Of a DNA stretch of 64,000 bases, positions 17,322 through 27,177 are shown in pieces. Each line of letters begins with the position of its first letter. The first letter of the stretch is position 1. The notes beneath the pieces were generated by a model that ran no database searches, was not told the origin of the DNA, and saw nothing but the letters and a program-made list of their open reading frames with translations. Position numbers and translations under genes: made by a program. This stretch comes from Myxococcus guangdongensis (lineage in GTDB: Bacteria; Myxococcota; Myxococcia; Myxococcales; Myxococcaceae), in contig NZ_JAJVKW010000001.1 of the NCBI RefSeq assembly GCF_024198255.1, positions 496,001 through 560,000 of the forward strand, given 5' to 3'.

Positions 17322-17747
17322 TCAGGCGCTGCGCAGCATCAAGCGCTCCACCACGGAGCGGACCTCTCGCAGGCGGGACGGGTCCGTCACCGCGACGAAG
17401 ATGGTGTCGTCACCCGCCACCGTGCCGGCGAGCCCCGGCACCTCCGGCTCGCGGTCCAACGCCAGCGCCAGCACCGGCGCGTAGCCGGGGCTCGTCTTCA
17501 CCACGAGCAGGTTCGGCGGCGCCTCGACGATGCTCACGCGCGGACGCTCCGGCGTCGCCACCGGCTCCGTCAGGGACGCGCGTTGATAGCGCCCGCCCAC
17601 CTTCTGCACGCCCAGCTTCTTGAGCCGCCGCGACAGCGTGGACTGGCTCGGCGCCTGCCCCTCCGCCTCCAGCAGCTCCTGCAAGACGGCCTGATCGCTG
17701 ATCTCCCGCTCCGAGATGAGCCGAAGGATTTCGTCGTCCAGGTTCAT
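17322..17747 (-). CDS. argR: Arginine repressor ArgR
   Basis: A 141-aa repressor. The N-terminal winged helix has the family recognition helix SQSTLSRRLKKLG (about 34-46). The C-terminal arginine-binding and oligomerisation domain has GTVAGDDTIFVAVTD, close to the family GTIAGDDTI motif with its paired aspartates. With arginine bound, ArgR hexamers repress arginine biosynthesis genes. It is divergent from the argF'-argC operon, and the 183-bp space holds palindromes resembling ARG boxes. The start at 17747 gives the usual N-terminus; an ATG four codons upstream is also possible because GGAAGGA sits very close to the chosen one. Confidence 0.92.
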   Translation of the reverse strand: MNLDDEILRLISEREISDQAVLQELLEAEGQAPSQSTLSRRLKKLGVQKVGGRYQRASLTEPVATPERPRVSIVEAPPNLLVVKTSPGYAPVLALALDREPEVPGLAGTVAGDDTIFVAVTDPSRLREVRSVVERLMLRSA

Positions 17748-17768
17748 TCCTTCCACCATGCATGCACG

Positions 17769-17782
17769 TGAATTTCCATGCA
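17769..17782. promoter_or_regulatory. ARG-box-like site near argR
   Basis: TGAATTTCCATGCA resembles the ArgR half-site pair TGAAT...ATGCA of known ARG boxes. It lies about 20 bp upstream of argR, where it could mediate autorepression. Assigned by similarity only. Confidence 0.45.
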
Positions 17783-17817
17783 AGGAACCCGCATGGAAGA
17801 TTGCGGGAACAATACTC

Positions 17818-17845
17818 TTGCGCGCCGCGTCCTTCTGCATAATAT
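17818..17845 (+). promoter_or_regulatory. Sigma-70-like promoter of the arginine operon
   Basis: TTGCGC and TAATAT are separated by 16 bp, a good match to housekeeping -35 and -10 elements and rare in such GC-rich DNA. Transcription would start near 17852, about 80 bp before argF'. The palindromes that follow at 17865-17903 would lie just downstream of the start. Confidence 0.55.
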
Positions 17846-17864
17846 CCGCGCCCCATTCGCGGAA

Positions 17865-17903
17865 ATGCACGCATGAAGGTGCATACTCATCCACCTATGC
17901 ACC
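17865..17903 (+). promoter_or_regulatory. Overlapping operator palindromes before argF'
   Basis: Two inverted repeats overlap here. ATGCAC (17865-17870) pairs with GTGCAT (17879-17884) around 8 bp. GGTGCATA (17878-17885) pairs perfectly with TATGCACC (17896-17903) around 10 bp. The shared half-site suggests cooperative binding by ArgR just downstream of the promoter, or alternative RNA hairpins in the leader. Confidence 0.55.
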
Positions 17904-17930: not shown

Positions 17931-18941
17931 ATGAAGCACGTCACCCACATCAAGGATCTCGGCCCCGCGGGTGTGGAGGCCGTCCTCTCGCAGGCGGAGG
18001 CTTGGAAGAAGAAGGCCCCCGGCGCGCTCTTCCCGGGGAGCATCCTGGGCATGGTGTTCTTCAACCCGTCCTTGCGCACGCGCACCTCGTTCGAGGCGGT
18101 GATGCTGCGCGGTGGCGGCAACGCCATCATCCTGGACGTGGGCGCGGGCGTGTGGAAGCTCGAGCACCGCGAGGGCGCGGTGATGAACCTGGACCGCGCC
18201 GAGCACCTCAAGGAGGCCGCGCCCGTCCTGTCGCGCTTCGTGGACATGCTGGGCGTGCGCACCTTCTCGCAGGGCGGCGGTGACGAGGAGGACGAGGTCG
18301 ACCCCATCATCAACGCCTTCCGCAAGTGGGCCACCGTCCCCGTGGTCAGCATGGAGTCCGCGCGCGAGCACCCCTGCCAGGGCCTGGCGGACGTGCTCAC
18401 CCTGCGCGAGACGTTCGGCTCCACCCAGAAGCTGCCGGTGACGCTGACGTGGGCGCCCCACATCAAGCCCCTGCCCAAGGCGGTGCCCAACTCGTTCCTG
18501 CTCAGCGCGGCCGCGGCCGGCTGCGAGGTGCGCGTGGCCCACCCACCCGGCTTCGAGCTGCACCCGGCCGTGCGCGCGGAGGCGGAGGCGTACGCCAAGG
18601 CCACCGGCGGCAGCATCACCTACACCCACGAGCAGGACGAGGCGCTCGCCGGCAGCCGCGCCGTCTACGCCAAGTCCTGGGGCCCGACGGCCGCGGCGGC
18701 CTTCTCGCCCAACGACGTCACGGCGCTGCTCGCGTCGTACTCCGGATGGATGCCCACGCTGCGCACCATGTCGCGCGCCGCCAAGGACGCCGCCTTCCTG
18801 CACTGCCTCCCCGTGCGTCGCAACGTGGAGGTCGCCGACGAGGTCCTGGACCACCCCAGCAGCCGCGTGGTGGACGAGGCGGGCAACCGCTACCACGTCC
18901 AGCGCGCCCTCCTGCACTGGATGCGCTCGCAGTCCCTCTGA
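17931..18941 (+). CDS. argF': N-acylornithine carbamoyltransferase, N-succinylornithine (SOTCase)-like
   Basis: A 336-aa transcarbamylase. The carbamoyl-phosphate site is NPSLRTRTSF (Ser47, Arg49, Thr50, Arg51) with HPCQ later. The end motif HCLPVRRN marks the acylornithine branch, since ornithine enzymes have a shorter HCLP motif. Residue 90, just before EHLKEA, is Ala. In characterised enzymes Glu at this place (Glu92, Xanthomonas) favours N-acetylornithine, while Pro90 (Bacteroides fragilis), or Pro, Ser, Val or Ala by mutation, favours N-succinylornithine. LDVGAGVWKLE and WAPHIKPLPKAVPNSF also follow the Bacteroides enzyme. Product: N-acylcitrulline, cytoplasmic. First gene of the arginine operon. 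Confidence 0.88.
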   Translation: MKHVTHIKDLGPAGVEAVLSQAEAWKKKAPGALFPGSILGMVFFNPSLRTRTSFEAVMLRGGGNAIILDVGAGVWKLEHREGAVMNLDRAEHLKEAAPVLSRFVDMLGVRTFSQGGGDEEDEVDPIINAFRKWATVPVVSMESAREHPCQGLADVLTLRETFGSTQKLPVTLTWAPHIKPLPKAVPNSFLLSAAAAGCEVRVAHPPGFELHPAVRAEAEAYAKATGGSITYTHEQDEALAGSRAVYAKSWGPTAAAAFSPNDVTALLASYSGWMPTLRTMSRAAKDAAFLHCLPVRRNVEVADEVLDHPSSRVVDEAGNRYHVQRALLHWMRSQSL

Positions 18942-18995
18942 ACCGAGGCGCCCTTCCAGGCGCGCCCGTCACCCTTCTTCCTTTCGAGGTCTCCC

Positions 18996-19925
18996 GTGCC
19001 CCTGTCGCCCGACCCGTACTCCGCGCTTCGCAACGCCGCGCGCTATGTGCAGCAGTTCCGTCGCAAGACGTTCGTCGTGAAGCTCGGCGGCGCCATGCTG
19101 AGCGACCCGCGCCTGCGCCGCTCCGCGTGCGAGCAGATCGCCCTCTTGTGGACCTTCTCCATCCGCCCCGTCGTCGTGCACGGCGGCGGTCCGGAGCTGG
19201 ACACGCTGTGTGACGCCCTCCACCTGCCGGTGGAGAAGGTGGCGGGCCGCCGCGTCACGTCCGCGCCCGTGCTGGACGCGGCGAAGATGGTGCTCGCCGG
19301 CAAGCTGCACACGGACCTGCTCGCGGACCTGCAGGCGGCGGGCGTGCCCGCGGTGGGCCTGAGCGGCGTGGACGCGGGCCTCATCAAGGCGCGCAAGCGT
19401 CCCCCCGTCATGGTGACGGAGCCGGGCGCCACCGAGGGCCGGCTGGTGGACTACGGGCTGGTGGGCGACATCGAGGCGGTGGACACGCGCGTCGTCGAGC
19501 ACCTGCGCTCGGCCGACTACGTGCCCGTCATCGCGCCCCTCTCCGGCGGCGTGGACGGCGCCGTGTACAACACCAACGCGGACACCGTGGCGGCGGCGCT
19601 GTCGGTGGCCCTGTCGGCGGAGAAGCTCTTCTTCCTGGTCCAGGTGCCGGGCCTGCTCAAGGACCTGAACGACCCGACGTCGCTGGTGACGCTGGCGAAC
19701 CTGACGGACCTGGCGACCATGGAGAACACGGGCGCCATCTCCGGCGGCATGCGGCCCAAGGCGCACGCCATCCGCCACGCGCTCGTGGGCGGGGTGGGCA
19801 GCGTGCACCTGGTCAGCGGCGTCGCGCCCAACGCGCTGCTCGAGGAGGTCTTCACCAACGAGGGCAGCGGCACCATGGTCGTCCGCGAGAAGGCGCCCAA
19901 GACGGCCGCCGGGAACGCGGGATGA
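18996..19925 (+). CDS. argB: N-acylglutamate kinase ArgB
   Basis: A 309-aa amino-acid kinase that phosphorylates N-acetyl- (or N-succinyl-) glutamate. Motifs: VVKLGGAML with catalytic Lys29, VVVHGGGPELD, the acylglutamate-binding stretch AGRRVT, and the nucleotide-side YNTNADTVAAAL. The C-terminal GGMRPKAHA contains the conserved Lys of the active site. GTG start at 18996. The stop overlaps the next start as ATGA, so translation is coupled to the deacylase. In an operon with a SOTCase-like enzyme, the true substrate may be the succinyl form; the sequence alone does not decide this. Confidence 0.9.
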   Translation: MPLSPDPYSALRNAARYVQQFRRKTFVVKLGGAMLSDPRLRRSACEQIALLWTFSIRPVVVHGGGPELDTLCDALHLPVEKVAGRRVTSAPVLDAAKMVLAGKLHTDLLADLQAAGVPAVGLSGVDAGLIKARKRPPVMVTEPGATEGRLVDYGLVGDIEAVDTRVVEHLRSADYVPVIAPLSGGVDGAVYNTNADTVAAALSVALSAEKLFFLVQVPGLLKDLNDPTSLVTLANLTDLATMENTGAISGGMRPKAHAIRHALVGGVGSVHLVSGVAPNALLEEVFTNEGSGTMVVREKAPKTAAGNAG

Positions 19926-20983
19926 AGCCGGCGGAGCTGCTCCAGGCGCTGGTGGCCATCCCCAGCGTGTCGGGTGACGAGCGTCTCATCGCGGACACGG
20001 TGTCCGGGTGGGCGGAGGGCTGGGGTGCGCGCGTCCAGCGCAAGGGCCACAACGTGTGGTTCTCCGTGGGCAGCGGCCCCCGACGCCTGCTCGTCAACTC
20101 GCACCTGGACACGGTCAAGCCGTGTGCCGGGTGGACGTACGCGCCCCACGCGCCCGAGTGGCGCGAGGACCGCCTGTACGGCCTGGGCAGCAACGACGCC
20201 AAGGGGTGCGTGACGGGGATGCTCGTCGCGGCCCGCACCCTGCTCGCCGAAGGCGCGCCCCAGGGCGCCGAAGTCGTCTTCGCCTTCACCGCCGAAGAGG
20301 AGACCGGAGGCCAGGGCCTGGGCACGCTCCTGCCCGAGCTGGGGCCGCTCGACGCCGCGGTGGTGGGCGAGCCGACCAGCCTCAAGCCCTGCACCGCGCA
20401 GCGAGGCATGCTGCTCCTGCGCTGCACCGCGCACGGCAAGAGCGCGCACGTGGCGCACGCGCACAAGGCGCAGGCGGTCAACGCCATCCACATGGCGGCC
20501 GGGGACATCTCCAAGCTCGCGGAGCTGCGCTTCCCGTCGCATCCGCTGCTGGGTGAGGCGCGGGCGCAGGTGACGCAGATCTCCGGGGGCCTGGCGCGCA
20601 ACCAGGTGCCCGACGCGTGCGAGTTCTTCGTGGACCTGCGCACCACGCCGAGCATGGACCACGCGCAGGTGGCGAAGGAGCTGGGCGAGGCGCTCCAGAG
20701 CGAGGTGAAGGTGCACTCGGCGCGCTACCTGCCGAAGGCGACGGCGGACCATCAGCCCATCGTCCGCGCGGCGATCGCGGCGTCGGGCGAGGCACCGGTG
20801 GGCTCCAGCACCACGTCGGACTGGGCCTTCCTGGGCGAACTGCCCGCGGTGAAGGTGGGCCCGGGCGACACGCTGCGAAGCCACCTGGCGGACGAGTACA
20901 TCACCCGGGCGGAGCTGGAAGCCGGCGCCGCCTTCTACACGCGCCTTCTGCGCGGCTACTTCGAGGAGGTGGCCCGTGGCTGA
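19922..20983 (+). CDS. argE': M20 family N-acylcitrulline (or acylornithine) deacylase
   Basis: A 353-aa M20 metallohydrolase. Metal ligands and catalytic residues are seen: NSHLDTV (His61, Asp63), GLGSNDAKG (Asp92), TAEEETGG (catalytic Glu125, Glu126) and GEPTS (Glu150). NSHLDTVKP with GSNDA is the form I associate with Bacteroidota ArgE-type enzymes. After a SOTCase/AOTCase step the expected reaction is removal of the acyl group from N-acylcitrulline, giving citrulline for ArgG. It overlaps argB by four bases and argH by eight. Cytoplasmic, with no signal peptide. Confidence 0.88.
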   Translation: MKPAELLQALVAIPSVSGDERLIADTVSGWAEGWGARVQRKGHNVWFSVGSGPRRLLVNSHLDTVKPCAGWTYAPHAPEWREDRLYGLGSNDAKGCVTGMLVAARTLLAEGAPQGAEVVFAFTAEEETGGQGLGTLLPELGPLDAAVVGEPTSLKPCTAQRGMLLLRCTAHGKSAHVAHAHKAQAVNAIHMAAGDISKLAELRFPSHPLLGEARAQVTQISGGLARNQVPDACEFFVDLRTTPSMDHAQVAKELGEALQSEVKVHSARYLPKATADHQPIVRAAIAASGEAPVGSSTTSDWAFLGELPAVKVGPGDTLRSHLADEYITRAELEAGAAFYTRLLRGYFEEVARG

Positions 20984-22325
20984 AACCCTGTGGGGCAAGG
21001 GCGCCGCGCTCGACGCGGTCATCCATCGTTTCACCGTGGGCGACGACCCGGTCGTCGACCTGTCGCTCGCGCCGCACGACGCGCTGGGCAGCGCCGCGCA
21101 CGCGCGCATGCTGGGCAAGGTGGGGCTCCTGAAGGCCGAGGAGTCCCGCGCGCTCGTGCGCGCGCTCAAGACGCTGCACGACGAGGCCCGCGCGGGCCAG
21201 TTCACCATCCGCCCCGAGCAGGAGGACGGCCACACCGCGCTGGAGGCGGCGCTCGTGGAGCGCGTGGGCGAGCCGGGCAAGCGCATCCACCTGGCGCGCT
21301 CGCGCAACGACCAGGTGCTGCTCGCGGTGCGCCTGTTCCTGCGCGAGGAGGTGCTCGCGCTCGGCGCGGGCGCGGTGAAGCTCGCCGAGACCTTCCTCGA
21401 CTTCGCCCAGACGCATCAGCACGTCGCCCTGCCGGGCTACACGCACCTGCGCCGCGCCATGCCCTCCACCTTCGGCATGTGGGCCATGGCCTTCGCGGAA
21501 GGGCTGCTCGAGGAGCTGGAGGCGCTGCGCGGCGTGTGGGGCCGGTTGGACCGGTGTCCGCTCGGCGCGGCCGCGGGCTTCGGCGTGCCGCTGCCCATCG
21601 ACCGTGAATACGTCGCGTCGCTGCTCGGTTTCAGTCGCGTGCAGAGAAGTCCCATCGATGCGCAGAACGGCCGCGGTCGCCACGAGACCGCGGTGCTGAC
21701 ATGGGCCTGCAGCGTGGCGGGCACGCTGGAGAAGTGGCTGTGGGACGTGCAGCTCTACAGCACGGACGAGTTCGGCTTCCTGGGCCTCCCGGACGCCTTC
21801 ACCACCGGCTCGTCCATCATGCCGCAGAAGAAGAACCCGGACGTGGTGGAGCTGGCGCGCGGACGGTGCCGCGAGCTGCGGGGCCTGCTGCACCAGGTGG
21901 AGGCCGTGGCGAGCGGACTGCCGTCCAGCTACCACCGTGACTTCCAGCTGCTCAAGCGCCCCACCCTGGCGGCGCTGTCCTCCAGCCGCTCGCTCTTGGA
22001 TGTGCTGTCCCGGCTGGTGCCGGTGCTCCAGGTCAAGGCGGACGCGGCGCTGGCCGCCTGTGACGACACGCTCTATGCGGCCCACCATGCGTACACGCTG
22101 GTGGCCGGTGGACAGGCCTTCCGCGACGCGTACCGGCAGGTGGGCCGGGAGCTGGCGGACGGCACGTTCCATCCGGACCGCGAGGCCTTGACGGCCACCC
22201 ACCTGGGTGGCGCCGGCAACCTGGGACTGGCCCAGGCCCGAGAGGAGCTGGGCGCCCAGCGCGCCTGGCTCGACGACACCCACCGCGCCCTGGCCACGGC
22301 GGCCGAGCGCGTCTGGGATGTGTGA
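20976..22325 (+). CDS. argH: Argininosuccinate lyase ArgH
   Basis: A 449-aa fumarase/aspartase-superfamily enzyme that splits argininosuccinate into arginine and fumarate. The superfamily signature GSSIMPQKKNPD is at about residues 279-290. HLARSRNDQVLLAVRLFLRE and PGYTHLRRAMP follow the ArgH pattern, including catalytic His and Ser regions. The GTG start at 20976 lies within the end of argE', giving an eight-base overlap. The gene is followed 27 bp later by argG, with AGGAG before its ATG. Confidence 0.95.
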   Translation: MAETLWGKGAALDAVIHRFTVGDDPVVDLSLAPHDALGSAAHARMLGKVGLLKAEESRALVRALKTLHDEARAGQFTIRPEQEDGHTALEAALVERVGEPGKRIHLARSRNDQVLLAVRLFLREEVLALGAGAVKLAETFLDFAQTHQHVALPGYTHLRRAMPSTFGMWAMAFAEGLLEELEALRGVWGRLDRCPLGAAAGFGVPLPIDREYVASLLGFSRVQRSPIDAQNGRGRHETAVLTWACSVAGTLEKWLWDVQLYSTDEFGFLGLPDAFTTGSSIMPQKKNPDVVELARGRCRELRGLLHQVEAVASGLPSSYHRDFQLLKRPTLAALSSSRSLLDVLSRLVPVLQVKADAALAACDDTLYAAHHAYTLVAGGQAFRDAYRQVGRELADGTFHPDREALTATHLGGAGNLGLAQAREELGAQRAWLDDTHRALATAAERVWDV

Positions 22326-22352
22326 CGACGATTCCCCGCGAGGAGTGATGAC

Positions 22353-23546
22353 ATGAGCAAGAAGAACGTGGTGCTGGCCTTCTCCGGCGGACTCGATACC
22401 GCTTTCTGCACGGTGTACCTGCGCGAGCAGGGCTACGACGTGACCACCGTCACGGTGGACACGGGCGGCTTCCCGCCCGAGCAGCTGGCGAACATCGCGG
22501 CCCTGTCGGCGAAGCTGGGCGCCGTGGAGCACATCAAGGTGGACGCGCGCGGCACCCTCTTCGAGGGCTACCTGCGCTACCTCATCGCCGGCAACGTGCT
22601 GCGCGGCCAGCTCTACCCCCTGAGCGTCTCCGCCGAGCGCGCCTGCCAGGCCGTGGAGGTGGTGCGCGTGGCGCGCGAGAAGGGCGTGCAGTCGCTCGCG
22701 CACGGCAGCACCGGCGCCGGCAATGACCAGGTGCGCTTCGACGTGGCGTTCCGCTCGCTGGCGGGAGACCTCGAGCTGCTCACCCCCATCCGCACGCTGG
22801 GCCTGAGCCGTCAGCAGGAGCTGTCGTTCCTGGCCGAGCGCGGCATCCACATGCCGCCGAAGCTGGGCTCGTACTCGGTCAACGAGGGCATGTGGGGCAC
22901 GTCCGTGGGCGGCAGCGAGACGCTCAACTCGTGGAGCGCGCTGCCCGAGGCGGCGTTCCCCTCCGGCGAGATTCCCACCGACCTGAAGCCCCGCCCGCTG
23001 ACGGTGGGCTTCGACAAGGGCGTGCCCTCGTCGCTGGACGGCAAGGCGCTGGGCCCGGTGGAGCTGGTCGAGGCGCTCAACGTGCTGGGCCGTCAGTACG
23101 GCATCGGCCGCGGCGTGCACCTGGGTGACACCATCCTGGGCATCAAGGGCCGCGTGGGCTTCGAGGCGCCCGCGGCGCACCTGCTCATCACCTCGCACCG
23201 CGAGCTGGAGAAGCTGGTGCTGTCGGGCAAGCAGCTCTTCTGGAAGGAGACGGTGGGCAACCTGTACGGCTCACTGCTCCACGAGGGTCACTTCTTCGAC
23301 CCGCTCGTGAAGGACCTGGAGGCGTTCCTCACGTCCTCGCAGGAGCGGGTGACGGGCGAGGTGCGGCTGGTGCTGCACCCGCGCACGCTGGTGGTGGAGG
23401 GCGTGCGCTCGCCGTACTCGCTGATGGACGCGAAGGTGGCGACGTACGGAGAGGCGAACGTGTTGTGGACGGGCTCGGAGGCCGCTGGCTTCGCCAAGCT
23501 GTACGGCGTGGCGCAGATGCTCTCGCACAAGGCGAAGGGAGGCTGA
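22353..23546 (+). CDS. argG: Argininosuccinate synthase ArgG
   Basis: A 397-aa enzyme that joins citrulline and aspartate with ATP to argininosuccinate. The N-type ATP pyrophosphatase loop AFSGGLDT is at residues 9-16. The later segments AHGSTGAGNDQVRF and TVGFDKGVP are typical of the citrulline/aspartate sites. It belongs to the shorter ArgG branch with ASLDTxx-type variation (GGLDTAFC). AGGAG precedes the ATG. One base separates its stop from the next gene, so gene X at 23548 is very probably co-translated. Confidence 0.94.
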   Translation: MSKKNVVLAFSGGLDTAFCTVYLREQGYDVTTVTVDTGGFPPEQLANIAALSAKLGAVEHIKVDARGTLFEGYLRYLIAGNVLRGQLYPLSVSAERACQAVEVVRVAREKGVQSLAHGSTGAGNDQVRFDVAFRSLAGDLELLTPIRTLGLSRQQELSFLAERGIHMPPKLGSYSVNEGMWGTSVGGSETLNSWSALPEAAFPSGEIPTDLKPRPLTVGFDKGVPSSLDGKALGPVELVEALNVLGRQYGIGRGVHLGDTILGIKGRVGFEAPAAHLLITSHRELEKLVLSGKQLFWKETVGNLYGSLLHEGHFFDPLVKDLEAFLTSSQERVTGEVRLVLHPRTLVVEGVRSPYSLMDAKVATYGEANVLWTGSEAAGFAKLYGVAQMLSHKAKGG

Positions 23547-23547
23547 C

Positions 23548-24609
23548 ATGAAGGTCTTCGTCGACAAGGTCGGTAGCGTCACCCGCAACCTGGGGCTGGG
23601 CCGCACCGTGCACCTGGCGCCCGAGGTGAAGGCCGAGGAGGGCGCCGTCGTGGCCGTGCGCATCCACGGCGAGAAGAGCGTCTACAACCAGCTGGAGGAC
23701 TGCCACGGCCGGCTGGTGACGCTGCACGCGGGCGACATCATGGTGGGCGCCCTGGGGCACCGCAACGCGCTGCACGGCTACGAGGGCGTGGTGCCGGAGT
23801 CCGTCACCGTGGGCCAGCGGCTGCACGTGCTGAACATGGGCGGCGTCATCGGCAAGTGCACCTCGCACAACCCCGGCGTGGGCATGCCCTTCGAGGCGGA
23901 GGTGCTCGGACAGGTGCTCGAGTTCCCGGAGCTGTTGTCGCGCAACGGGCAGCCGGCGCACATCTCCTCGGGCGCGCTCAAGGGCACGGGGACGATGGTG
24001 AAGTGCCCCGTGGTCTACGTGGTGGGCACGTGCATGAACGCGGGCAAGACGTACGCGGCGAGCGCGATGGTGCGCAAGCTCGCGCAGGCGGGCTACCGCG
24101 TGGGCGGCGCGAAGCTCACGGGGGTGTCGCTGATGCGCGACACGCTGAGCATGCAGGACTCCGGCGCGGACGTGGTGATGGACTTCACGGACGCGGGCAT
24201 CGTCTGCACGGGGCCTCGCACGGCGGCGCGGGTGGCGCGGGTGCTGTTCAGCGAGCTGGCGTCGGCGGACGTGGACGTCATCGTCGCGGAGACGGGCGAC
24301 GGCATCATGGGTGAGTACGGCGTCCAGGCGATTCTGGCGGACCCGGAGCTCAAGGGCCTGGCGGGCGCGTGGGTGATGTGCGCGAACGACCCGGTGGGCG
24401 CGGCCGGCGGAGTGCGGCACCTAAAGGAGACGTACGGCATCGAGGTGGACGTGCTGGCGGGGCCGGCGACGGACAACGCGGTGGGCGTGCGCTTCGTGGA
24501 GCAGGTCGTCGGGGTTCCGGCGCGCAACGCCCGCGCGGACGCGGCGGCGCTGGGTGGTCTCATCCTGGAGAAGCTCACGCCCAAGCTGGGCGTGGGGAGG
24601 AAGTCATGA
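23548..24609 (+). CDS. Two-domain P-loop protein embedded in the arginine operon, function unknown
   Basis: A 353-aa protein. Residues 1-140 are beta-rich with many Gly and His (GDIMVGALGHRNALHGYEG). Residues 152-353 form a P-loop NTPase domain with Walker A GTCMNAGKT (160-168) and a Walker-B-like strand DVDVIVAETGDG. The layout recalls dethiobiotin-synthetase/CobQ-type ligases and, more distantly, DUF1611. I cannot assign a reaction. It lies one base after argG, and its stop overlaps the argC start by four bases, so it is fixed in the pathway's translation unit. The cluster lacks an N-acylglutamate synthase and an ArgD aminotransferase. A role in the first step or in carbamoyl/acyl supply is possible but unproven. 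Confidence 0.75.
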   Translation: MKVFVDKVGSVTRNLGLGRTVHLAPEVKAEEGAVVAVRIHGEKSVYNQLEDCHGRLVTLHAGDIMVGALGHRNALHGYEGVVPESVTVGQRLHVLNMGGVIGKCTSHNPGVGMPFEAEVLGQVLEFPELLSRNGQPAHISSGALKGTGTMVKCPVVYVVGTCMNAGKTYAASAMVRKLAQAGYRVGGAKLTGVSLMRDTLSMQDSGADVVMDFTDAGIVCTGPRTAARVARVLFSELASADVDVIVAETGDGIMGEYGVQAILADPELKGLAGAWVMCANDPVGAAGGVRHLKETYGIEVDVLAGPATDNAVGVRFVEQVVGVPARNARADAAALGGLILEKLTPKLGVGRKS

Positions 24610-25673
24610 CGCGGGCACATATCTACATCCTGGGCGCCTCCGGCTTCGGCGGCGGCGAGCTCTTGCGGATTCTCTCCGGCCACCCGGCGGTGGCGGGCAT
24701 CCGCGCGGTGTCCCGGCACCACGCGGGCGAGCCCATCCACAAGGTGCACCCGCACCTGCGCGGGCTGGTGGACGCGAAGTTCGAGGCGGAGCCGGACTGG
24801 CGCTGGCTGGCCGACTCGCAGCAGCCCGTCGTCTTCAGCGCGCTGGGCCACGGGGAGCTGGCCACCCAGTTCCTCGGCCTGGAGAAGAAGTGGGCCGAGG
24901 CCGGCCTCGCCGAGCGCGTGCTCCTGGTGGACCTGTCCTCGGACTTCCGCCTGGACCACCCGGGCCGCTACGCGGGCGCCTACGGCAAGCCGCACCCCGC
25001 GCCGGACCTGCTGGGCACCTTCACGTATGGCCTCACCGAGTGGAAGCGCGAGGAGCTCAAGGGCGCCAAGCGCATCGCGAACCCGGGCTGCTTCGCCACC
25101 GCGGTGCAGCTGGCGCTCTTGCCCATCGCGTCCACGCCGGGCCTGGGCCTGCTGGCCGTCTCGGGCGTGACGGGCTCGTCCGGCTCCGGCTCGCTGCCGG
25201 GCGAGGGCACGCACCACCCCACCCGCGCGCACGACTTCCGCGCGTACAAGCCGCTCGAGCACCAGCACGAGGCGGAGGTGGAGGTCATGCTGGTGGCCCA
25301 CGGCGCGCAGCGCCACCGGTTGGCCTTCGTGCCGCACTCGGCCCCCATGGTGCGCGGCATCTTCGCCACCGTGCAGTTCGAGTGGCCCGAGCATGGCGGC
25401 GCGGTGGTGACGCAGTCGCTGACGGACAAGTTCCGGCGCTACTACGAAGGCTCGAAGTTCGTGCGCATCGTCGAGGGCACCCCGCGCATCGCCGCCGTCA
25501 CCGGCAGCAACTTCTGCGACATCTCCGTCGCGACGAAGGGCCGCTCGGTGGCCGTCATGGCCGCGCTGGACAACCTGGTGAAGGGCATGGCCGGCCAGGC
25601 CGTGCAGAACTTCAACGTGTCCCTGGGCCTGCCCGAGGACACCGGCCTGCGCCAGGCGGCCTGTTACCCGTGA
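24606..25673 (+). CDS. argC: N-acylglutamyl-phosphate reductase ArgC
   Basis: A 355-aa NADPH-dependent reductase that converts N-acylglutamyl phosphate to the semialdehyde. The Rossmann motif is LGASGFGGGELL (9-20). The active-site Cys162 is in ANPGCFATA, and the catalytic His is in the FVPHSAPMVRGI region. The ATG overlaps the stop of the P-loop gene as ATGA; a longer in-frame opening upstream is only read-through of the shadow frame. It is the last gene of the operon. A strong hairpin follows six bases after its stop. Confidence 0.93.
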   Translation: MTRAHIYILGASGFGGGELLRILSGHPAVAGIRAVSRHHAGEPIHKVHPHLRGLVDAKFEAEPDWRWLADSQQPVVFSALGHGELATQFLGLEKKWAEAGLAERVLLVDLSSDFRLDHPGRYAGAYGKPHPAPDLLGTFTYGLTEWKREELKGAKRIANPGCFATAVQLALLPIASTPGLGLLAVSGVTGSSGSGSLPGEGTHHPTRAHDFRAYKPLEHQHEAEVEVMLVAHGAQRHRLAFVPHSAPMVRGIFATVQFEWPEHGGAVVTQSLTDKFRRYYEGSKFVRIVEGTPRIAAVTGSNFCDISVATKGRSVAVMAALDNLVKGMAGQAVQNFNVSLGLPEDTGLRQAACYP

Positions 25674-25975: not shown

Positions 25976-26299
25976 ATGCCCATCGCTGAATGTGCTGGAG
26001 GCTGTCCTCGCGTCATCTCGCTCTCGGTGGACCCCGCGGGAAATCCCGTGGCCGCGGCCCAGCCGGAGCACTTCGCCACCCGCTACCGACACTGCCCCTC
26101 TTGCAGACGCTTCTGGTGCGAGCGCTGCATCGGCGGGGCCCTCGCCTGCATTCGCTGCGATGGCCCGCTCGAGTCCCCCACGCCGCGCCACGCGCTGGAC
26201 ATCCTCTTCGGCGGACGGATTCCCGAGGGGCTGCTGGCCAGCATCGACCTCGAGGCCGCGACCTCGGAGGACGACTCGAAGCGCCAGGGAGGGAACTAG
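25976..26299 (+). CDS. Small Cys-rich zinc-binding protein
   Basis: A 107-aa protein with eight cysteines: C6 and C10, then three CxxC pairs at 40/43, 48/51 and 58/61 (CPSC, CERC, CIRC). The spacing suits a treble-clef or RING/FYVE-like zinc site that binds two metals. No enzyme motif is seen. Its stop is two bases before the ATP-grasp gene start, so the two are an operon and probably work together, perhaps as substrate adaptor and ligase. The exact fold is not assigned. Confidence 0.7.
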   Translation: MPIAECAGGCPRVISLSVDPAGNPVAAAQPEHFATRYRHCPSCRRFWCERCIGGALACIRCDGPLESPTPRHALDILFGGRIPEGLLASIDLEAATSEDDSKRQGGN

Positions 26300-26301
26300 C
26301 C

Positions 26302-27177
26302 ATGGCTCGCACCGCACGCGCCCTGCTCTTCGGTCGCAATCCCTCCCAGCACGACACCTTCGACGTGGAGGCAGAGGCCGCCGAGGCCCTGGGGTTCGAC
26401 ACGTATCAGGTGGACCTGGCCGCCCTGCTCAACGGCAACGCGGAGCTGGCACTCGAGGCCATGCCGCGCCAAGGCCCCCTGCGCCTGCTCTACCGGGGGT
26501 GGATGCTCACCGAGGAGGAGTACACCGCGCTCGACGAGGCCCTCTCCGAGCGCGGCCACCGGCTCACCACCACGCCCACGCAGTACGCCGCCGCGATGTA
26601 CCTGCCCCACTGGTACCCGCGGCTCGCGCGCTACACCGCGCGCTCCATCTGGACCGAGGGCACCGAGGCCCGCGAGGCCTGGAGTGAAGCGGTCCGCGTG
26701 CTCGGCCCTCCGCCGTGGATCCTCAAGGACCACGTGAAGTCCGCGAAGGAGCGCTGGGAGGAGGCCTGCTACGTGCCCGCGGGCGCCACGCTCGAGGACT
26801 TCGCGCGCACGTGCGAGAACCTCGTGGAGGAGCGCGGCGAGCGCTTCGAGCGGGGACTCGTCGTCCGCAAATACCTGCCCCTCAAGGTCTACGGCCGCAC
26901 GCCCACCGGCCCCGCCCACCTGGAGTTCCGACTCTTCTTCGGCCACGGCCGCCTGCTCGCCGCCGAGCCCCAGCATGAGTTCGACGTCGAGGTCCCCGAT
27001 TTCTCATCCTTCGAGCCCCTGGGACGTCGCATCGACTCCCCCTTCTTCGCCCTCGACGTCGCCATGCTCCAGGACGGTGGCTGGGCCGTCGTCGAAGTGA
27101 ACGACGGAGGTGTCTCCGGCCTGCCTCCGGGCCTGGACCCTCGCGTCCTCTTCGAGCCCTTGCTGGGGACCGGGTAG
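26302..27177 (+). CDS. ATP-grasp domain protein (DUF4343-like)
   Basis: A 291-aa protein with an ATP-grasp-type layout. The N-terminal third is an alpha/beta domain, followed by the central nucleotide-binding strands WILKDHVKSAKERW and VVRKYLPLKVYG. The C-terminal metal/ATP motif is WAVVEVNDGGVSGLP, in which Glu and Asn bind Mg-ATP in this superfamily. Such enzymes join a carboxylate to an amine or thiol, but the substrate is unknown. It starts two bases after the small zinc protein. The chosen ATG at 26302 excludes a long upstream read-through that overlaps that gene in another frame. Confidence 0.8.
   Translation: MARTARALLFGRNPSQHDTFDVEAEAAEALGFDTYQVDLAALLNGNAELALEAMPRQGPLRLLYRGWMLTEEEYTALDEALSERGHRLTTTPTQYAAAMYLPHWYPRLARYTARSIWTEGTEAREAWSEAVRVLGPPPWILKDHVKSAKERWEEACYVPAGATLEDFARTCENLVEERGERFERGLVVRKYLPLKVYGRTPTGPAHLEFRLFFGHGRLLAAEPQHEFDVEVPDFSSFEPLGRRIDSPFFALDVAMLQDGGWAVVEVNDGGVSGLPPGLDPRVLFEPLLGTG

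Follow-up and report, generated by a model that had tools for sequence, protein, structure and literature searches.

The first enzyme of arginine biosynthesis commits glutamate to the pathway and is often its point of feedback control. Several unrelated proteins are reported for this step, namely ArgA, the fused NAGS-kinase, ArgJ and the S-, O-, H- and C-NAGS (PMC4490483), with ArgA2 and ArgA3 as further examples (PMC9026213). Acetylornithine carbamoyltransferase is reportedly found together with the bifunctional NAGS-kinase (PMC4490483). A review lists Glu92, Asn185 and Lys302 (Xanthomonas positions) as the residues of the acetylornithine enzyme and, for succinylornithine carbamoyltransferase, A, S, P, V or Q at 92, P at 185 and V, I or E at 302; mutation switches the substrate preference (PMC4581275). 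GapMind describes a succinyl route in Bacteroidetes that is supported by the same carbamoyltransferase position (PMC7311316). The first enzyme of that route is a GNAT, ArgA2 (PMC9026213), with a distribution reported to be limited to Bacteroidetes and Caldithrix, the latter having the gene order argAGCBEH (PMC5317091).

The gene described here encodes a P-loop protein within an arginine operon of a myxobacterium. In the open-access literature we found no function assigned to its family and no paper that extends the succinyl route to its carriers. Myxococcus xanthus is not known to require arginine. According to a 2007 paper it lacks ornithine acetyltransferase and its pathway is linear, with N-acetylglutamate synthase as sole source; the passage names no gene for the synthase (PMC1865377). 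A paper on freshwater Acidobacteriota reports that the Holophagaceae, except Acidiparvus, have no N-acetylglutamate synthase (PMC11561045).

The arginine operon and its missing step

The window analyzed is a stretch of 64,000 nucleotides from Myxococcus guangdongensis. Its arginine operon (17931–25673) has, by family scans, the order carbamoyltransferase, argB, argE-like, argH, argG, P-loop gene, argC (Table 1). The argG stop codon (23544–23546) is followed by a single base and then the ATG of the P-loop gene, the 3′ end of which (24606–24609, ATGA) overlaps the start of argC by 4 bases; the ORF coordinates thus confirm the spacing given in the initial annotation. The GC content of the gene at codon positions 1/2/3 is 0.71/0.45/0.97, which is typical for coding sequence. 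An R2K-clade ATP-grasp protein (PF14243) is encoded soon after the operon, at 26299–27174 on the plus strand.

Table 1. Features of the arginine locus and of the P-loop protein (window positions)
Feature	Position	Strand	Evidence
argR, divergent, upstream of operon	17322–17894	-	PF02863/PF01316
Knotted-type carbamoyltransferase, predicted N-succinylornithine type	17931–18941	+	NF003384, 443 bits; A, P, E at three diagnostic positions
argB, N-acylglutamate kinase, without NAT domain	18996–19925	+	TIGR00761, 200 bits
argE-like M20 deacylase, predicted substrate N-acyl(succinyl)citrulline	19922–20983	+	M20; below cut-off of every NCBIfam model listed
argH	20976–22325	+	TIGR00838, 300 bits
argG	22353–23546	+	TIGR00032, 301 bits
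P-loop gene, candidate N-acyl(succinyl)glutamate synthase	23548–24609	+	353 aa, ATG start; ORF check, family scans, model, operon conservation
Beta-rich N-terminal domain, residues 1–152	23548–24003	+	Model; conserved K43, Y46, E50, R55, D63, R72, Y78, N96, E118, R132
Walker A motif GTCMNAGKT, residues 160–168	24025–24051	+	G160, G166, K167, T168 in 92/92 family rows
Invariant Lys189, aligned with BioD second lysine	24112–24114	+	92/92 rows; 1dts, 1a82 weak profile alignment, E 0.12–0.13
E248-x-G-D251 acidic motif, Walker B-like position, putative role	24289–24300	+	E248, D251 in 92/92 rows
argC	24606–25673	+	TIGR01850, 329 bits; start checked

The genome (11.2 Mb, completeness 99.96%) contains one match to the P-loop gene, and argD is located outside the operon, on contig C9 (482 bits). 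Among the arginine pathway steps checked (carAB was not one of them), only the first has no recognized gene. As the initial annotation had stated, the operon contains no N-acylglutamate synthase: ArgB is a short kinase of 309 residues, and the family scans matched no other family of this kind in the operon. The best of the two matches of the window genome to the ArgA profile proved to be argB itself and covers the kinase part only (profile 4–282).

Distribution of the P-loop gene and of known first enzymes

At least 566 relatives were confirmed in the genome collection, of which the best 80 (identity ≥49%) were kept. Every one of these best 80 has at least one arg-gene match in the same stretch, ArgG being the sole such match nearby in two (L117 and L121), and in 77 of the 78 loci among them with an ArgC match, argC begins downstream on the same strand at a distance of no more than 700 bases. 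The gene order varies: one locus (L031) has carbamoyltransferase-argB-gene-argC and another (L032) has argR-argG-gene-argC-carbamoyltransferase-argB-argE-argH. The earlier description of the gene as locked into the arginine operon is borne out by the best 80 of at least 566 relatives, but more distant relatives, at about 28–34% identity, sit outside arginine operons, so the description is valid for the closer family only.

Carriers among the best 80 of at least 566 include Myxococcaceae, Geothrix and other Holophagaceae; for the last, the comparison with the report on freshwater Acidobacteriota is at the level of the taxon, not genome by genome. Further carriers are MAGs labelled Lysobacterales, Phycisphaerae, Gemmatimonadetes, Elusimicrobia, Armatimonadetes and Bdellovibrionales, labels of MAGs or records that may be wrong. 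The titles of three loci (L044, Comamonas; L112, Methanoregulaceae; L115, a Klebsiella pneumoniae MAG) seem ill-matched to the sequence, and the records are possibly mislabelled or contaminated.

In one genome (G016) a 29% paralogue (L037:1412-3878) adjoins a gene for an M14/AstE-AspA-like peptidase, and the same genome has ArgJ. Relatives on plasmids have 28–49% identity, seven spanning 70–75% of the P-loop protein and one 19%, and those examined (four annotated records) lie in non-arginine gene clusters. On a Priestia megaterium plasmid (NZ_CP085446.1; L198:3682-12370), the genes clustered around a distant P-loop relative encode a PEP-mutase-like protein, two proteins of the ATP-grasp type, an M20 enzyme and a carbamoyltransferase of ornithine type, and may belong to a phosphonate peptide pathway; ordinary OTC models are the best fit to this carbamoyltransferase, which makes the resemblance to the arginine operon a loose one. 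On Paracoccus and Sulfitobacter plasmids (L195, L196, L197) the relatives are annotated as dethiobiotin synthase or DUF1611 and directly precede an ABC transporter gene, and on both Paracoccus plasmids an alpha/beta hydrolase gene precedes the P-loop relative.

Among 195 Myxococcota genomes, the P-loop gene is present in 59 (the G016 paralogue is additional), ArgJ in 90, the NAT domain of N-acetylglutamate synthase in 10 and the carbamoyltransferase, scored at E 1e-40, in 69. None of the 59 carriers has ArgJ and none has NAT; these counts are phylogenetically non-independent and, within the window's family (96 genomes: P-loop gene 53, ArgJ 40, neither 3), may represent one switch. Full-length ArgA exceeds the cut-off in a single genome (G145), one without the P-loop gene, and hence in 0 of the 59 carriers. 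In the window's family the set of genomes with the carbamoyltransferase is identical to the set with the P-loop gene (53), and among all 59 carriers it is found in 57, G187 and G194 giving no match. Conversely, 12 genomes have the carbamoyltransferase and no P-loop gene. Six of these have NAT, five belong to family f11, and the last is G186. In the four f11 genomes that were fetched, the carbamoyltransferase matches lie outside arg operons; G186 has an argG-carbamoyltransferase fragment and no NAT match. In all three gene-less operons tested NAT is fused to the ArgB kinase, whereas the ArgB that adjoins the P-loop gene is a short kinase, mostly of 270–335 residues.

A second set comprised the carrier genomes behind 38 of the 80 fetched loci, for which there are no completeness figures; at least four of them (G208, G230, G231 and G232) are apparently also among the 195, having identical match coordinates. 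ArgJ was found in 0 and NAT in 0 of the 38; control genomes were silent in this NAT search, and the same model matched 10 of the 195 Myxococcota genomes. Full-length ArgA occurs in one of the 38 (G212), near a contig start, and is possibly contamination, while several carriers weakly match the acetyltransferase portion of the ArgA profile, with G215 highest at 51.9 bits. Apart from ArgA in G212, therefore, no recognized first enzyme was found in the carriers, which include relatives of Myxococcus and Geothrix. Because it does not overlap with ArgJ or NAT, and because its neighbor is a short ArgB rather than a fused synthase-kinase, the P-loop gene fits the first-step hole. Together with the operon conservation across phyla, this context lends good support to the earlier proposal of the gene as a candidate for the missing N-acylglutamate synthase.

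Two alternatives place the first step elsewhere. The window genome has 43 GNAT matches (PF00583 being the GNAT model searched), and a search of 40 of them with NCBIfam (1e-8, 25 families listed) gave RimI and other families and no acylglutamate synthase; an unrecognized GNAT could be the first enzyme there. The P-loop protein would then be an accessory NTPase, serving metal delivery or assembly of the M20 deacylase or sensing arginine or nucleotides. HypB and MobB are metal-delivery or assembly factors that serve other enzymes, and proteins of these types share the fold of the P-loop protein or give weak profile matches. We consider this rather improbable, since it leaves unexplained both the absence of overlap with NAT and ArgJ and the general lack of a recognized synthase in carriers, and since some carrier operons (e.g. 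L034, L057, L063, L073 and L078) have no ArgE match.

The second alternative concerns the window strain. A DUF1611/DgcN homologue and the ORF that follows it (L191:2421-4500; G000:C1:562421-564500) lie 2.4 kb to the right of the window and are patchy in the genus. The homologue is a full match (242.6 bits) and the next ORF reads like a DgcA-type enolase-superfamily epimerase, a pair that could make N-acetyl-L-glutamate in this strain and leave the operon gene another job. Three single-contig carriers (G118, G121 and G136) have neither ArgJ nor DUF1611 over the cut-off, so this pair cannot serve carriers in general, a role already ruled out by its patchy distribution, and even for the window strain we hold the explanation to be very improbable. 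The initial annotation had named a separate functional acylglutamate synthase elsewhere in the genome as an argument against its proposal; none of the recognized synthase families searched was found there, but the DgcN-DgcA-like pair lies close by, and an unrecognized GNAT may be present.

Acetyl- or succinyl-type intermediates

An acetyl pathway was the first assumption and was dropped once the carbamoyltransferase residues had been read. The window enzyme has the A/P/E residues published for the succinylornithine type and not those of the acetylornithine type (E/N/K), and is predicted to be of the former type, although its NCBIfam label is N-acetylornithine. The same positions were read in 75 carrier rows, consisting of the window and 74 loci with a carbamoyltransferase reading longer than 250 residues; many are near-copies, and one mis-hit (L097: G, gap, E) is retained in the count. 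Position 92 is A in 48, V in 11, P in 7, T in 4, Q in 3, S in 1 and G in 1, with Glu in none; T and the G of the mis-hit lie outside the residue list of the review. At position 185, 72 rows have P, two have A and one has a gap, and position 302 is E in 54, V in 11, I in 5 and K in 5 (E, V or I in 70 of 75). All six gene-less relatives have E/N/K: (i) L123, L125 and L127 come from synthase-kinase operons, (ii) L124 and L126 from genomes whose NAT lies on a different contig, and (iii) L134 from G186, which has no NAT match. Six further loci (L128–L133; five from four f11 genomes and one from G182) are not part of arg operons and form a separate tally.

The window enzyme scores 228.9 and 228.4 bits against Xanthomonas entries whose printed sequences have Ala at 92 and Glu at 302, and 226.6 bits against the wild type, a marginal difference. 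In a tree from which 7 off-target rows and 20 near-copies were left out, the six gene-less enzymes group with that of Xanthomonas in a single clade (100/100), which lies within the carrier enzymes, so that the succinyl type of residues may be the ancestral one; the succinylornithine enzyme of Bacteroides is on a long branch and its placement is unsure. Two ArgE proteins from synthase-kinase operons score above the cut-off of NF006439, the model for acetylornithine deacetylase (421 and 462 bits), and three ArgE-like proteins from carrier operons and that of the window exceed no cut-off among the models listed. Because the carbamoyltransferase has A/P/E and not E/N/K, the arginine pathway of this operon probably runs on N-succinyl intermediates.

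The P-loop protein and its proposed role

The AlphaFold2 model of the P-loop protein (41 family rows) has a pLDDT of 94.8 and a pTM of 0.91 and comprises a strand-rich N-terminal domain and, from about residue 150 on, a P-loop domain. Modelled separately, residues 1–152 gave a pLDDT of 92.6, with strands and one short helix. This domain has no significant match in the PDB (best Foldseek E 1.2; best Z 3.1 in a second fold search), which is not proof of a new fold, and residues 1–144 have no Pfam match up to E 1. The DUF1611_C, MobB, BioD and CobQ profiles match from residue 145–160 on, each below its cut-off. The closest structures by Z are 2g0t (DUF1611; 16.4, rmsd 3.3, 181 residues aligned) and CTP synthases (16.4), followed by dethiobiotin synthetase (15.8), 2obn (15.4) and 7xrj (DgcN; 14.7, rmsd 3.3, 183 aligned), several being tied. 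Ranked by E-value in Foldseek, the SRP GTPases Ffh and FtsY are at the top with BioD in the top rows, all with TM-scores below 0.42 to the whole model. Both the CobQ/BioD-type P-loop domain and the novel beta-rich front described in the initial annotation are therefore present.

No solved relative was found by sequence with the single protein as query, and the matches to the family profile, two to BioD (E 0.12 and 0.13) and one to an anti-sigma factor (E 1.7), were all non-significant. Pfam and NCBIfam matched neither a GNAT/NAT domain nor ArgJ in the P-loop protein. The fold matches and a GxxxxGKT Walker A sequence in 92 of 92 family rows identify a P-loop NTPase of the SIMIBI type. In this 92-row alignment, from which the G016 paralogue (L037) was excluded, G160, G166, K167, T168, K189, D198, D204, E248, D251, D281 and N327 are invariant. 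In the weak profile alignment to BioD (E 0.12), K189 corresponds to a lysine that is catalytic in BioD.

The initial annotation had linked the protein to DUF1611 and DgcN, the latter of which reportedly acetylates D-glutamate from acetyl-CoA. The title of structure 7xrj names an N-acetyltransferase. The P-loop protein scores 22.3 bits with PF07755 (cut-off 25 bits), some of its homologues score 25–27 bits, and a profile comparison of the two families gave a probability of 13% (E 0.0022) with an alignment limited to the P-loop half. The N-terminal domain of DUF1611 is not shared. Where the P-loop family has GKT and K-x-T-G, the DUF1611 rows from Myxococcota have GKK or GKR (7 of 7, five being close kin) and a TGQT motif. 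The sub-threshold score, the N terminus and the P-loop residues rule out DUF1611 membership, and on the tests made the link is at most one of fold, CTP synthase and BioD being in the same Z range as the DUF1611 structures. BioD membership is likewise absent (17.5 bits with the equivalog TIGR00347, cut-off 83.3). The fold and profile comparisons proposed earlier thus place the protein among P-loop folds but not in the DUF1611 family.

Given the retention of GKT and K189, as against GKK or GKR in DUF1611, we infer that the P-loop family retains Mg-ATP chemistry. This bears on a DgcN-like version of the first step, which is included in the probability given below for the role as a whole: the P-loop would hold acyl-CoA, and acetyl or succinyl would pass directly to glutamate without ATP. 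The DUF1611 structures among the fold matches are compatible with it, as is DUF1611_C, which matches 20 of 41 family members weakly and is the Pfam model with most members matching. However, CTP synthase equals 2g0t in Z score and BioD is about 1 above 7xrj, the profile comparison is weak, and K or R replaces the Thr after GK in the DUF1611 rows. We regard such a mechanism as doubtful. The BioD-like fold, with the carbamoyltransferase in nearly all carriers, could also suggest that the protein makes carbamoyl phosphate for that enzyme by BioD-like activation of carbamate with ATP. carAB is also required for pyrimidines. This proposal leaves the first-step hole in place and the non-overlap with NAT and ArgJ unexplained, and we judge it extremely improbable.

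Our preferred reading, which we put at a probability of roughly 0.62 and which is based throughout on sequence and predicted structure, is that arginine synthesis begins with the P-loop protein, its first committed enzyme and an N-acylglutamate synthase. We infer that it acylates the alpha-amine of L-glutamate, most likely with succinyl; given the role, a succinyl group is the likelier choice. ArgB, ArgC and ArgD would convert the product to N-acylornithine, the operon carbamoyltransferase would form N-acylcitrulline, and the ArgE-like M20 enzyme would strip the acyl group ahead of ArgG and ArgH. By a weaker argument the P-loop protein might form an acyl-phosphate from ATP and free succinate (or another acid), much as carboxyl groups are activated in BioD and the CobB-type enzymes, with no acyl-CoA donor; if the role is correct, dependence on ATP is an even question. 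The full proposal, a new class of ATP-dependent, acyl-CoA-independent N-succinylglutamate ligase that combines a BioD-like P-loop with a new beta-rich substrate domain and defines a succinyl-arginine pathway across Myxococcota, Acidobacteriota, Planctomycetota, Gemmatimonadota and others, is tentative and, as a whole, unlikely. The initial annotation is supported in its candidate for the first enzyme, its DUF1611/DgcN route is weaker than stated, and succinyl is a likelier acyl group than acetyl. If the role is correct, the first-step hole would be filled in many lineages together, the carbamoyltransferase and ArgE of carriers would be re-annotated as succinyl- rather than acetyl-type, and the unrelated proteins reported for the first step would come to include one with a P-loop scaffold.

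Among known systems, DUF1611 (PF07755; DgcN 7xrj, 2g0t, 2obn) resembles the P-loop protein in its P-loop fold and, if the proposed role is correct, in the N-acylation of glutamate by DgcN; the P-loop protein differs in its sub-threshold score, its own beta-rich front, the retained GKT and Lys189, and its setting in an arginine operon. BioD, CTP synthase and CobQ-CobB have a similar P-loop fold and the P-loop Lys-Thr, and the second Lys aligns with that of BioD, but the P-loop protein is far under the cut-offs of these families and has its own N-terminal domain and an arginine context. The bifunctional NAGS-kinase of the Xanthomonas/Maricaulis type occupies the pathway position proposed for the P-loop protein but consists of a kinase with a fused NAT domain, goes with carbamoyltransferase residues of the acetylornithine type, and never occurs with the P-loop gene in the genomes analyzed here. 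ArgA2 (BT3761/Cabys_1732), a probable N-succinylglutamate synthase of Bacteroidetes, would carry out the same step beside a succinylornithine-type carbamoyltransferase, but is described as a GNAT (PMC9026213) and is set apart from the P-loop protein by that description rather than by sequence.
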